From assembly GCA_024278345.1 (NCBI GenBank), contig JAJRTK010000137.1, positions 1 to 33,829 on the forward strand: a stretch of DNA of 33,829 bases, read 5' to 3'. Position 1 is the stretch's first letter, and each line of letters starts with the position of its first letter. Below are positions 1 through 25,781 of the stretch, piece by piece. The stretch comes from a bacterium (lineage in GTDB: Bacteria > CSSED10-310 > JAJRTK01). A program made the position numbers and the translations under genes. The notes beneath the pieces were generated by a model that ran no database searches, was not told where the DNA came from, and saw only the letters and a list, made by a program, of their open reading frames with translations.

Positions 1-144
1 AAATTGTCGTGTTTTTGCTTTACAATTTTCTTCGCCGAAACGGTGGCACCGGCATCTTGCCGGTGTAGCGCCCTCCGGGCTGCACGGAGCCGGGAAGGAG
101 GCCCGCCCCAGCGGTGAAGTTGTCAACCGGATCTGATAGGTTCC
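1..144 (+). mobile_element. MITE-like dispersed element, copy 1 (left end cut by window edge)
   Basis: 144-bp match to 17566-17709 in the same orientation with 4 mismatches by eye (positions 18, 21, 128, 142). Right terminal repeat TGATAGGTTCC at 134-144. Internal hairpins AAATTGT(1-7)/ACAATTT(22-28) and CACCGGCA(47-54)/TGCCGGTG(58-65), plus stem CTTCGCCG(30-37)/CGGTGAAG(112-119). Confidence 0.8.
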
Positions 145-16652: not shown

Positions 16653-17489
16653 TCAGGAGGAGAGCTCTTTCTTGCTTCCGGCGAGCCGCCGCAAGTATGG
16701 ACCCACGGGTCTGTAAACCAAGCGCAGGACGAAACGAGGAGTCCAGCGACCACCCCAAATCGCCAAATTCATGGGCAAAGAAAAGGCATGGGTCAGGGCG
16801 CGTCCTCGCGAAAACCCCTTGAGCCCCATCCGGGCGCATTTCTCCGCACTGATCTCCGCCCAACCCGGAACAGCCTGCCCCGTGGGGTTGCCAGCCACAT
16901 CCTCGAACTCCGTGGCCACCGGACCGGGGCAGAGTTGGCTCACCACCACGCCCGTACCCACCAACTCCATTCGAAGTGACTCCGTGAAGGCTGTCACGTA
17001 GTGCTTTGTCCCCGCATAGGCTGCTGCACCCGGCATGAAGGTCAAACCGAATCCAGAGCTGACATTCAAGATCCCTCCACGGCCTCGATCCAACATCGAG
17101 CCCAAAACTCGGTGCGTCAAGTGGGTGAGGGAGACGACATTGATCTTCAGCATCCGGTGGAGTTTGTCCCAAGATGCCCCCTCGAAAAGTTCTGTAGAGC
17201 CCATGCCCGCATTGTTGACCAAAATGTCAATGCCTCCCAAAACCTCCCGGACCGACTGGAGCATCCCGTCCGCGGCCTCGAGATCCGTCAGATCGCACGC
17301 CTCCACTCGCACCGTCAGTGCGGGATACTTTCCCAAAAGCTCCCCCTTGAGATCCTCCAACCGCTCCTTTCTTCGAGCCACCAGCACCAGGGATTTCGCC
17401 CGAGGCGCAAGCTGACGCGCCATCTCCCGGCCTATTCCCGATGAAGTTCCCGTAATTAGAATGTTGCCCCCATCAATGGGTGGTTTCAT
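16653..17489 (-). CDS. Short-chain dehydrogenase/reductase (SDR)
   Basis: ITGTSSGIGREMARQLA, DILVNNAG, catalytic S...YAGTKHYV motif, PGPVATEF. Confidence 0.92.
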   Translation of the reverse strand: MKPPIDGGNILITGTSSGIGREMARQLAPRAKSLVLVARRKERLEDLKGELLGKYPALTVRVEACDLTDLEAADGMLQSVREVLGGIDILVNNAGMGSTELFEGASWDKLHRMLKINVVSLTHLTHRVLGSMLDRGRGGILNVSSGFGLTFMPGAAAYAGTKHYVTAFTESLRMELVGTGVVVSQLCPGPVATEFEDVAGNPTGQAVPGWAEISAEKCARMGLKGFSRGRALTHAFSLPMNLAIWGGRWTPRFVLRLVYRPVGPYLRRLAGSKKELSS

Positions 17490-17547: not shown

Positions 17548-17717
17548 TTCGAACGGGGACCTATCAAATTGTCGTGTTTTTGTTTCACAATTTTCTTCGC
17601 CGAAACGGTGGCACCGGCATCTTGCCGGTGTAGCGCCCTCCGGGCTGCACGGAGCCGGGAAGGAGGCCCGCCCCAGCGGTGAAGTTGTCAACTGGATCTG
17701 ATAGGTCCCTTCGAACG
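17548..17717 (+). mobile_element. Complete MITE-like element, copy 2, with TIRs and target-site duplication
   Basis: TTCGAACG (17548-17555) / GGGACCTATCA (17556-17566) ... TGATAGGTCCC (17699-17709) / TTCGAACG (17710-17717): perfect 11-bp TIRs and perfect 8-bp flanking direct repeat; no transposase ORF inside the 154-bp element. Confidence 0.85.
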
Positions 17718-18328: not shown

Positions 18329-20785
18329 GTGAAGCCCATGTTCGAACGATTTTTGGAGTTCGTCTGCCGTAGCTCGCACCGCCGGCCTTTGGCTTGGCTT
18401 GCTCTCGCCTTTTTCCTTAGCCTTCCAGCCCTTTACGAGGTGACCACCGAGCTGCGCGTCAACACCGACCTGACGCGGCTTCTTCCCGAAGAGAGCCCCG
18501 CGGTTCGCTGGAGCGATGAACTACGCGACACGGTGGGCGACGGAGGCGTCTTCAGTATTCTTTTCCAAGGCGATGACCCAAAGGTTTTGCGGCGTGCCCT
18601 GGAGCTGACGGCGCCGGAGGTGGAGCTTCTGCCCGAAGTCCAGACCGTACAATACCGCTATCCAGTGAAATTCCTGGAGAAATACGCCTACCTGTTGGCT
18701 CCATCGGAGCTGCTTCAAGAGATGTTCGATCTCCTGGTCCAGTGGCGTTCCGCGGCAAGCCCTTTTGCCCTCGACCTTTCCAAGGATGCCAAGGAGGCGC
18801 TTCCATCGGAAGAGCAAAAGCGGTTGGAAGAGACGCTCTACCTGGCGACGAACCTGCCGGACATTCACCAGAGCCGTGATGGTCGCATCGTGGGGATGCT
18901 CGTCTATCCCAAGGATGCCGTGACGAACCTTGGAAAGGTGCGGGATCTTTACGAAAAGCTGGAGGTGATTGCTTCAAAGGCCGGGGAAGAGCTGGGGGTT
19001 TGGCACGGGGTCAGTGGCACGATGCGAAACAAGCTGACGATCTTCAAATTGGTGATGCGGGATCTGGGTCGTAGCGGGATTGTGGCGATTCCAGCGATCC
19101 TTTTGGCGCTGGTCATCACCTTTTGGTCGGTGCGGATTCTACCGGTGTTGCTTTGGCCTCTTGGCGTGGGTCTTCTTTGGGCTTTTGCCTTGGTTCCGTC
19201 CCTTGTGGGGGATCTCAATAGCATTACGGCCTTCCTGCTCATGATCCTTTTCGGGATGGGGGTCGATCACTCGATCCACCTTGTCAAGCGCTTCCAGGGC
19301 GAGCTCATGGTCCTCGATCCCGAATCCGCCCTCCTGGAAACCTACCGGTCCACGGGGCGCTCGGTGGCCACGTCGGGCTTGACGTCGGCACTGGCTTTGA
19401 CAATCCTGTCGCTGACGGGATTTCGGGGGTTTTCGGACTTCGGGATCATCAGTGGCTCCGCAATGCTGGTGGTGCTCGTCGCCATGTTCCTGGTCATGCC
19501 ATCCGCCCTGGCACTTGGAGTAAGGTGGGGTCTGGTCCTTCCCAGAAGCCCTGTCATGCACAAATGGTCGGTCGTTCCCAATCAGTGGTGGACGCTTGCT
19601 CTGGCTGCCGTTGTGGTGGCGGCGTTCCTGGCAAGCCCCTGGGGGCTGCGGTTCGACTATGATTTCCAGGAGCTGCAAACGGAGACAGCGGAAGCCGCTC
19701 AGGTCAAAACGCTCCACAGGCAAGTCTATTCCGCCTCGCTCACGCCGGCGGCAATCTATGTGGCAAAAGATATTGATGCGTTGGATCGAATGCTGGCTGC
19801 CTTGGAAGAGGCCAAGAGCCATGAACCAGGGTCCAAGCTCTTCGGTCGGTTGGCCAGTATCCGGGAACTGAGTCCACGGCCCGCGGAAGTCCAGAAGCGC
19901 AGGGAGATCCTGACCGAATTACAGGATCGTCTCAAGGGCCGTTGGATCCGACGGGTGAAGGACGAACGCAAAAAGGAACTGCTCCAGAAGGTTCGCGACT
20001 TCCAGATCCCGTGGGCCATGCCATCCCTCAAGGATCTTCCTGCCCAGGCCGAGCACGTTCTCAAGGCCCGCGATGGTTCTGGCGAGCTCGTTCTTGGCGT
20101 CTATCCCATCATCGAGCGAAGGAAGGGAAAAAAAGCCATCGCCTTCACCCGGGCTCTTTACGAGCTGGGGCGCCCGGCGGGAATCCGGGGGCCCACCGGC
20201 GAGACGATCATCTTTGCCGAGATCCTGGGCCTCGTGACGCGAGAAGGTCCCTGGATCATGGTTCTTACTCTCCTGGGGGTTTGGCTCCTTGTCCTGGTGG
20301 ATCGCCGTTCCTGGTGGCAGAGCCTCTGGGTTCTCTTCCCCCTGGGCGCCGGCCTGGGATTGACCGTGGGAGCCATGTTCCTTTTTGGCTGGAAGCTCAA
20401 TTTCTTCAACATGGTTGTTCTTCCGGCTCTCATGGGGATGGGGGTCGATCACGGGGTCCACTATCTCCGCCGCTGGCACGAGCTTGGGCGGGATACCGAA
20501 GCGACGCAACGAGAGCTTTTCGAGGCGCTGAGCAGCGCGTCCCTCACGTCGATGATGGGCTATGCCGGATTGTTGTTGGCCCATCACCAAGGGCTTCGAT
20601 CCATCGGTAATCTTGCCGTCATGGGTCTCTTCTTCTGTTGGCTCACGGCTCTGGTTCTCCTTCCCGGCTGCCTGCGCCTCGTGGAACGGCGTGGCCGCCC
20701 AGGAGCCATGAGGGGAATGGCTCCGCCGCGCCTGGCAAGGCCAGAGAAGAGGGGAGCGGCTCCGCTCCATATCAGTGCCGCCTAG
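18329..20785 (+). CDS. MMPL/RND-superfamily transporter
   Basis: 818 aa, two halves each with TM bundle and GMGVDH motif (GMGVDHSIHLVKRF; GMGVDHGVHYLRRW). GTG 18329 or ATG 18338 start. Confidence 0.88.
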   Translation: MKPMFERFLEFVCRSSHRRPLAWLALAFFLSLPALYEVTTELRVNTDLTRLLPEESPAVRWSDELRDTVGDGGVFSILFQGDDPKVLRRALELTAPEVELLPEVQTVQYRYPVKFLEKYAYLLAPSELLQEMFDLLVQWRSAASPFALDLSKDAKEALPSEEQKRLEETLYLATNLPDIHQSRDGRIVGMLVYPKDAVTNLGKVRDLYEKLEVIASKAGEELGVWHGVSGTMRNKLTIFKLVMRDLGRSGIVAIPAILLALVITFWSVRILPVLLWPLGVGLLWAFALVPSLVGDLNSITAFLLMILFGMGVDHSIHLVKRFQGELMVLDPESALLETYRSTGRSVATSGLTSALALTILSLTGFRGFSDFGIISGSAMLVVLVAMFLVMPSALALGVRWGLVLPRSPVMHKWSVVPNQWWTLALAAVVVAAFLASPWGLRFDYDFQELQTETAEAAQVKTLHRQVYSASLTPAAIYVAKDIDALDRMLAALEEAKSHEPGSKLFGRLASIRELSPRPAEVQKRREILTELQDRLKGRWIRRVKDERKKELLQKVRDFQIPWAMPSLKDLPAQAEHVLKARDGSGELVLGVYPIIERRKGKKAIAFTRALYELGRPAGIRGPTGETIIFAEILGLVTREGPWIMVLTLLGVWLLVLVDRRSWWQSLWVLFPLGAGLGLTVGAMFLFGWKLNFFNMVVLPALMGMGVDHGVHYLRRWHELGRDTEATQRELFEALSSASLTSMMGYAGLLLAHHQGLRSIGNLAVMGLFFCWLTALVLLPGCLRLVERRGRPGAMRGMAPPRLARPEKRGAAPLHISAA

Positions 20786-23994: not shown

Positions 23995-24344
23995 AGCTTC
24001 ATTTACCGTGAAATCGCCGTAAACAGATTTTTGTCTTTCATCTTTAGAGGGCTGGCCAGCGCCTCCATGAGCGTTGGGGCGTCTGTCTTCCCTTCCTTGC
24101 AGCCGCTGGTGGTGCCGCCTTTCTTACCTAAATTTGCCGTTTCACAGGAGTCTTGACCTTTCAAGAATTTTGGAACCGGAAGTGGGGGACCCGTTGTTCT
24201 GATTTTAGGTTATTGATTCTCCACATTTCGGTTGCCCTCCATCGAAAGGGTGGTCCGCTCACTGACAGACCGCAGCCACTCGGGTCGTGGGTCTCCTGCA
24301 ACCGCCATTCGAACCCCACGGTCCCTTTTCGTTGGGAAGCTGAT

Positions 24345-25781
24345 ATGAGTGCCATGAACCAAGGATCCAGCCCAACCGAATCCGAAGACTCTGTTGCGAA
24401 AGAAGTTTCGGCTGGACTTCCGGCGAAACAAGAGCCTAAAGCCCGAGACCCCGGTTCCGGTGGGCCTGGCCCTGGAGACCATCGGGCGTCCGGGCCTCCA
24501 GCGGAGCCTGGGCCTGGAGCCCGCGCCCCCGGATTCGTGGAGCCTGGATCTGGAGACCATCGGGCGTCCGGGGCCCGCCACAGCTTGGGTGAGCCTGCTT
24601 CCGCGGGCTCCGACGGTTCCCCGCGGGCTGGACTGATGGGCCGGCCTTGGCTGCGTGAATTGGTGGGGCTGGTGGTGGTCGTAGCCGTTCTGGGAGTCGC
24701 CATTGTGGGTTTTGGCAGGGCCATCCAGGGTCGAGCCGAGGCCATCGGGGCGGAGACGAAGGCGGCGCGGGGCAGCGTGGCCCTACCGGTGACCAATGTC
24801 GTGGTGATGGTCGTGGAGCCCACGGAGGTGAGGGATGTGATCCGTCTTCCGGGCCTTGTCCAGGCAAACCGCGAAGTGACGGTTTCGGCCTTCACATCCG
24901 CTCCCGTGGTGGCAAGAAAGGGTCTTCCCATCAAAGAGGGGACGGAAGTTCGGATGGGAACACCGTTGCTCCAGCTCGATGAGCGGGATTGCGGTTTGCC
25001 CTTCGCTCGGGCGAAGGAGGAGCTGGAACTGGCCCAGCAGAACCTGGAACGAAGCCGCTCTTTGGTGAAGCGAAAGGCGCGTCCCCAGTCCGTCCTGGAT
25101 GCGGACGAGAACGTTTATGAGCGGGCGCTCATCGAGGTCAAGGCGGCCAAACTGGGTTTCGAGCGCTGTACGATCCGGAGCCCCATCGATGGGATTGTCG
25201 ATGCAGTTTATCCGGAGTTGGGAGAACTGTTGAAGCGCGGCGACAAGGTGGCGACCATCGTTGACATTGACACAGTCCGGGTGGAGGTGGGAGTGCCGGA
25301 GAGAGATGTCGCCGAGATTCGGGATCTGAAAACCGCATGGATTACTGTCGCTGCCTTAGGCGAAGGCCGCCGGTTCGAGGGCCGGAGGACTTATCTCAGC
25401 CTGCGGCCTCTTGAGCAGGCCATGGTCTACCGTTTGCGGCTGAAGGTAGACAATCCGCGTCACGAGCTAAAGCCTGGAATGTTCGCCGAAGCGGAGCTTG
25501 TGAAGTCGGTTCGGGAGAACGGCTTTTTGGTTCCTCTGTTTTCCGTGGTGACCCGAGGAGAGGAGCGAGTCGTCTACGTAGTGGGCAAGGGGCCCAAGGG
25601 TGAACCGATAGCCATGCGCCGGTCGGTGGAGGTGGGCATCATCTCCGGTCGGGAGATTGAGATTCGGTCCGGCCTGACTGCGGGAGACCGCTTGATCGTC
25701 ATGGGCCACAGGTCGGTGTCAGATAAGGCCGGGGTTCGGGTCATGCGGACGGTCAAGGACGTGCTGGAGCTGCTCCGATGA
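24345..25781 (+). CDS. RND efflux periplasmic adaptor (membrane fusion protein)
   Basis: In ORF 24153-25781; probable ATG at 24345; TM helix LVGLVVVVAVLGVAIVGFG, adaptor motifs GTPLLQLDERDCGLPFARAKEELELAQQNLERSRSL, CTIRSPIDGIVDAVYPELGELLKRGDKVATIVD. Confidence 0.88.
   Translation: MSAMNQGSSPTESEDSVAKEVSAGLPAKQEPKARDPGSGGPGPGDHRASGPPAEPGPGARAPGFVEPGSGDHRASGARHSLGEPASAGSDGSPRAGLMGRPWLRELVGLVVVVAVLGVAIVGFGRAIQGRAEAIGAETKAARGSVALPVTNVVVMVVEPTEVRDVIRLPGLVQANREVTVSAFTSAPVVARKGLPIKEGTEVRMGTPLLQLDERDCGLPFARAKEELELAQQNLERSRSLVKRKARPQSVLDADENVYERALIEVKAAKLGFERCTIRSPIDGIVDAVYPELGELLKRGDKVATIVDIDTVRVEVGVPERDVAEIRDLKTAWITVAALGEGRRFEGRRTYLSLRPLEQAMVYRLRLKVDNPRHELKPGMFAEAELVKSVRENGFLVPLFSVVTRGEERVVYVVGKGPKGEPIAMRRSVEVGIISGREIEIRSGLTAGDRLIVMGHRSVSDKAGVRVMRTVKDVLELLR

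Follow-up and report, generated by a model that had tools for sequence, protein, structure and literature searches.

A 154-bp member of a probable high-copy MITE family with 8-bp target duplications in a bacterium of the CSSED10-310 lineage

In a bacterium of the CSSED10-310 lineage (GenBank assembly GCA_024278345.1), a sequence of 154 bp with perfect inverted repeats at its ends is framed by the same eight bases on either side. The locus raises the question whether this sequence is a transposed element, how far its relatives have spread, and what may have moved it.

The element in the window and its copies in the host genome

The element lies in the window, i.e. the whole stretch of 33,829 nucleotides that was analysed, which represents one complete contig (C56) of the host genome. 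Read directly from the sequence, the non-autonomous element occupies positions 17556-17709 (forward strand) and starts with an 11-bp terminal inverted repeat (TIR), GGGACCTATCA (17556-17566), of which a perfect counterpart on the reverse strand, reading TGATAGGTCCC in forward-strand letters, forms the right end (17699-17709). The flanking 8-mer TTCGAACG is found at 17548-17555 and again at 17710-17717. These letters are exactly those of the preliminary description, which reported a 154-bp element with perfect TIRs and an 8-bp duplication at 17548-17717. The element is too short for any transposase-sized open reading frame (ORF), and by the structural definition it is a MITE; its DNA fold has a z value of -3.43. 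It is intergenic, located between the leftward gene of an SDR oxidoreductase (16653-17489, reverse strand), 66 bp upstream of the listed start codon, and the divergent, rightward gene of an MMPL/RND-type membrane transporter (18329-20785, forward strand). Elsewhere in the window, two direct tandem repeats of 78 bp, 73% identical (24409-24564), lie near the start of an ORF of 542 aa (24153-25781).

A second copy (copy 1; positions 1-144, forward strand) is 97% identical to the 154-bp element and has a right terminus, TGATAGGTTCC, with one change; its left end is missing because the first base of the window is also the end of the contig. The two loop differences between the copies fall outside the AAATTGT/ACAATTT arms, as had been noted before. 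When one mismatch is allowed, GGGACCTATCA has three matches in the window, all at the ends of these two copies, against 0.33 expected, a number reached in none of 100 shuffles of the window. The 8-mer TTCGAACG is not rare by itself (four occurrences versus 1.86 expected), and its duplication is persuasive because of the position of the repeats and because other copies are flanked by other 8-mers.

The host genome comprises 6.06 Mb in 550 contigs, in an assembly that is 88% complete. Matching of the 154 bp to this genome, as the preliminary description had suggested, gave at least 41 matches of 95-100% identity when 40 of 292 candidates were scored. Exact matches to the right-end 18-mer GGGACCTATCARATCYGG number 115 and those to GGGACCTATCARATC ends 181, with no occurrence of the reversed control in either case. 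With at most one mismatch allowed, the TIR was found 430 times as compared to 67 times for the control, and from this difference a rough estimate of about 180 copies is obtained. The family has at least some 115 members in the host genome, and the true number is probably nearer 180. Of the 282 edges of the stretches read in detail, 68 fall inside the element, a proportion that should not be taken for a genome-wide rate, as the stretches were mostly chosen for element content and some edges are cuts made in the analysis. The element accounts for part of the fragmentation of the assembly.

By DNA similarity the element was found in none of 58 other genomes, and the right-end pattern GGGACCTATCARATCCGG was found in none of 384 other genomes, seven of them from the same phylum; in both comparisons the nearest genomes belong to other families. 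No member was found among plasmid and phage records, and a literature search with the TIR string returned unrelated papers only. Judged by its sequence, the element thus apparently represents a new family of a well-known kind.

Insertion sites and the case for transposition

Copies were read in about 140 stretches (L-numbered), which together cover 1.52 Mb of the 6.06 Mb. Pairing of ends that are 120-200 bp apart in this sample yielded 82 end pairs, with a spacing of 148-199 bp. As to copies lacking these termini or duplications, which the preliminary description had named as counter-evidence, 55 of the 82 pairs carry an exact 8-bp duplication, 10 carry one with a single mismatch, and 17 have no duplication within one mismatch. 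Exact duplications of any other length were not found among the 82 pairs. The 53 duplication sequences that were tallied are all unique, and the base composition around the insertion sites reveals weak preferences only. The insertion sites tend to lie away from long ORFs, with a median of 695 nt versus 1257 nt at random sites.

Several copies are located inside other repeats, which makes it possible to compare occupied sites with element-free paralogues, after joining the flanks with a single 8-mer. Such empty sites were detected for the copies in L142 (94% identity to L162 over 133 bp, with further element-free paralogues in L195 and L072), L078 (97% to L167 over 93 bp) and L131 (94% to L097 over 88 bp), whereas for the copy in L168 the 8-mer matches that of L130 except for a one-base indel. 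These sites are paralogous, not orthologous, and concern copies other than the one in the window. A member of subfamily C in L071 (positions 1-232) lies inside the gene of an IS1595 transposase and has lost its right half by a deletion, and an apparent fusion of IS1595 and MITE sequences, with which contig C16 begins, is best explained as insertion of the MITE in the IS1595 gene, followed by deletion.

The classification as a MITE that had been proposed before is supported by the number of copies, by duplications that are always 8 bp long although the targets differ, and by the paralogous empty sites. With a probability of about 0.95, we regard the element as a copy of a high-copy MITE family that is moved, with an 8-bp stagger, by a DDE-type transposase encoded elsewhere. 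This enzyme, of which we infer the existence, the DDE nature and the transposition step, would recognise the GGGACCTATCA ends together with conserved subterminal sequence and move the 154-bp element in trans. The target, mostly between genes, would be opened by a staggered cut of 8 bp, and filling in would then give the direct duplication.

Subfamilies, mosaics and the central hairpin

An alignment of 75 oriented copies was divided into subfamilies by simple sequence tags, without use of a tree. Subfamily A, which includes the window copy, has 37 members that differ on average by 2.0% from their consensus, and the window copy and this consensus differ at four positions. Subfamily B has 23 members (1.95% from consensus), and the C and D groups are smaller and more divergent than A and B. 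Three parts are conserved in the whole family: about 34 nt at the left end, as far as TTTACA, about 25 nt at the right end (GGGACCTATCAGATCCGGTTGACAA), and a central hairpin of 19 nt, CACCGGCA-TCT-TGCCGGTG, which in the window copy is found at 17612-17630 (forward strand) and is present in all subfamilies. The nested stems of the preliminary description are all present as listed, but only the central hairpin is conserved family-wide. The AAATTGT (17566-17572)/ACAATTT (17587-17593) hairpin, spanning 17566-17593, and the stem formed by CTTCGCCG (17595-17602) and CGGTGAAG (17677-17684), spanning 17595-17684, are found mainly in subfamily A.

In a pairing analysis of 14 representative copies, 99% of the cells of the central hairpin were paired and two of its base pairs were changed on both sides, with values of about 57-62% paired for AAATTGT/ACAATTT and CTTCGCCG/CGGTGAAG. 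The covariation score was matched or exceeded in 6 of 500 shuffles. Since other measures were unremarkable and the sequences are related, the compensatory change is suggestive only. Inside some copies the hairpin unit is expanded to a tandem array, with 4.8 units of 35 bp in L076 (5710-5876), 4.8 units of 43 bp in L185 (15723-15927) and units of divergent sequence in L111 (8213-8491); all three arrays reach the end of the sequence read.

At least four full copies combine a left part of type A with a right part of type B, the switch occurring around the central hairpin, and each has its own exact 8-bp duplication (L148:4727-4880; L163:2746-2899; L177:16097-16250; L181:4541-4694). Because these mosaics have private changes in common, one such element probably arose, seemingly by recombination, and was then amplified. 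A divergent copy in L069 (4459-4657) carries a duplicated terminus of 44 bp, with two right ends in tandem.

A GC-rich hairpin that is the most conserved part of the interior, and that is tandemly expanded in some copies, would also fit a REP/REPIN-type palindromic repeat, of which the hairpin itself is the mobile unit, spread by a RAYT (REP-associated tyrosine) transposase. However, of the 154 hairpin cores in the 1.52 Mb, 145 are within 160 bp of TIRs, five are at contig edges and only four occur elsewhere, which implies that the hairpin does not move alone. Furthermore, to our knowledge REPs make no 8-bp duplications, whereas this family does, and a REP-type origin is therefore very improbable. 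We give just as little credit to a conserved structured RNA or regulatory element that is copied by recombination instead of transposition. The compensatory changes in the central stem and the intergenic bias would agree with it, but a search of Rfam gave no match for the element, and transposition is what the exact 8-bp duplications and the empty sites indicate. As RNA or as DNA, the hairpin may have a secondary role.

The compensatory change across subfamilies, the multiplied mosaics that switch around the hairpin and its use as the unit of tandem amplification raise the possibility that the central hairpin serves a function in the element, such as that of a fold on excised or single-stranded DNA or of a hot spot for recombination, a suggestion that we consider rather doubtful. 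The retention of the hairpin could be due to selection or to the way in which the element is amplified.

Known systems and the search for a parent transposon

Prokaryotic MITEs such as Chunjie of Geobacter uraniireducens and Correia of Neisseria have been reviewed (PMC10969869), and the present family resembles these in being short, non-coding and mostly intergenic, with TIRs, direct repeats and a foldable interior. It also shares the copy numbers of tens to hundreds that are described for prokaryotic MITEs (PMC10969869), a likeness by description. Judged by its anatomy, the family would work as known MITEs do. It differs from the Chunjie and Correia types in that it was found in the host genome only, among the genomes, plasmids and phages tested. 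An interior with a tandem minisatellite is known from the BrickBuilt MITE of Porphyromonas gingivalis, in which a 23-bp tandem unit defines the family (PMC4596501). In contrast to BrickBuilt, the present family is expanded only in some copies, with a repeat unit that includes the central hairpin. Duplications are 5 bp long in Tn3-type elements and 8 bp long in the present family. The Tn3-derived miniature elements (TIMEs), which generate mosaics, offer a parallel for mosaic non-autonomous elements that arise and move (PMC4133298).

What is less usual about the family is that the central hairpin is conserved and, in some copies, tandemly expanded, and that mosaics have been amplified. The family is a case of heavy MITE amplification in a bacterial phylum from which few genomes have been sampled, and its copies, mosaics and paralogous empty sites provide a clean set for MITE diversification without a visible parent.

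With respect to such a parent, the check for a full-length IS with a GGGACCTATCA-type TIR that the preliminary description had proposed gave none in the 1.52 of 6.06 Mb that were read. In this sample, no inverted end pair with a spacing above 162 bp (up to 5 kb) was accompanied by a duplication. Those orphan ends that were readable inwards led to truncated, nested or chance sequence, with no transposase gene of their own. Because breaks in the assembly fall inside the element, a parent with the same ends may be absent from the contigs.

The host genome was searched for transposases of the IS1595, ISL3, DDE_Tnp_1, IS256, ISKra4 and IS66 types, and none of the matches inspected has the ends of the MITE. 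No match for IS256 or IS66 (PF00872, PF03050) was obtained in the 88% complete assembly; an IS256 or IS66 parent that is absent or extinct is conceivable. Coding remnants of IS1595, ISL3, ISAs1-like and ISKra4-like elements are present, which would allow a decayed IS of one of the IS1595, ISL3, ISAs1 or ISKra4 families to be named as donor; this concerns the donor and not the MITE nature of the element. Duplications of 8 bp are a feature of IS1595 and ISL3, and the termini of ISKra4 members start with GGG. However, the local IS1595 copies end in GGCTCTATATGCGATCC and not in GGGACCTATCA, so that IS1595 was rejected, and no GGGACCTATCA-like terminus was seen next to the readable ISL3, ISAs1-like and ISKra4-like remnants, which are broken or truncated at contig ends. 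We consider a donor from these families unlikely, and the preliminary description was right to leave the donor family open.

An intact transposase of the DDE type, 601 aa in length, is encoded on contig C175 (L065:448-2253; also L085). Its N-terminal part is IS481/IS630-like and its C-terminal part IS1380-like, all below the family cut-offs, and an unrelated long inverted repeat is found upstream of the ORF. It was rejected as parent, the contig having no MITE-like sequence. Another abundant repeat, the ends of which resemble GGCCTCGGTCATGGTACCGGCCA, gave 68 end matches in the 1.52 Mb and is absent from the window. It occurs inside or abutting MITE copies in L114, L194, L071, L102, L127 and L099, and the ISL3 transposase gene in L060 is interrupted by sequence similar to this repeat.
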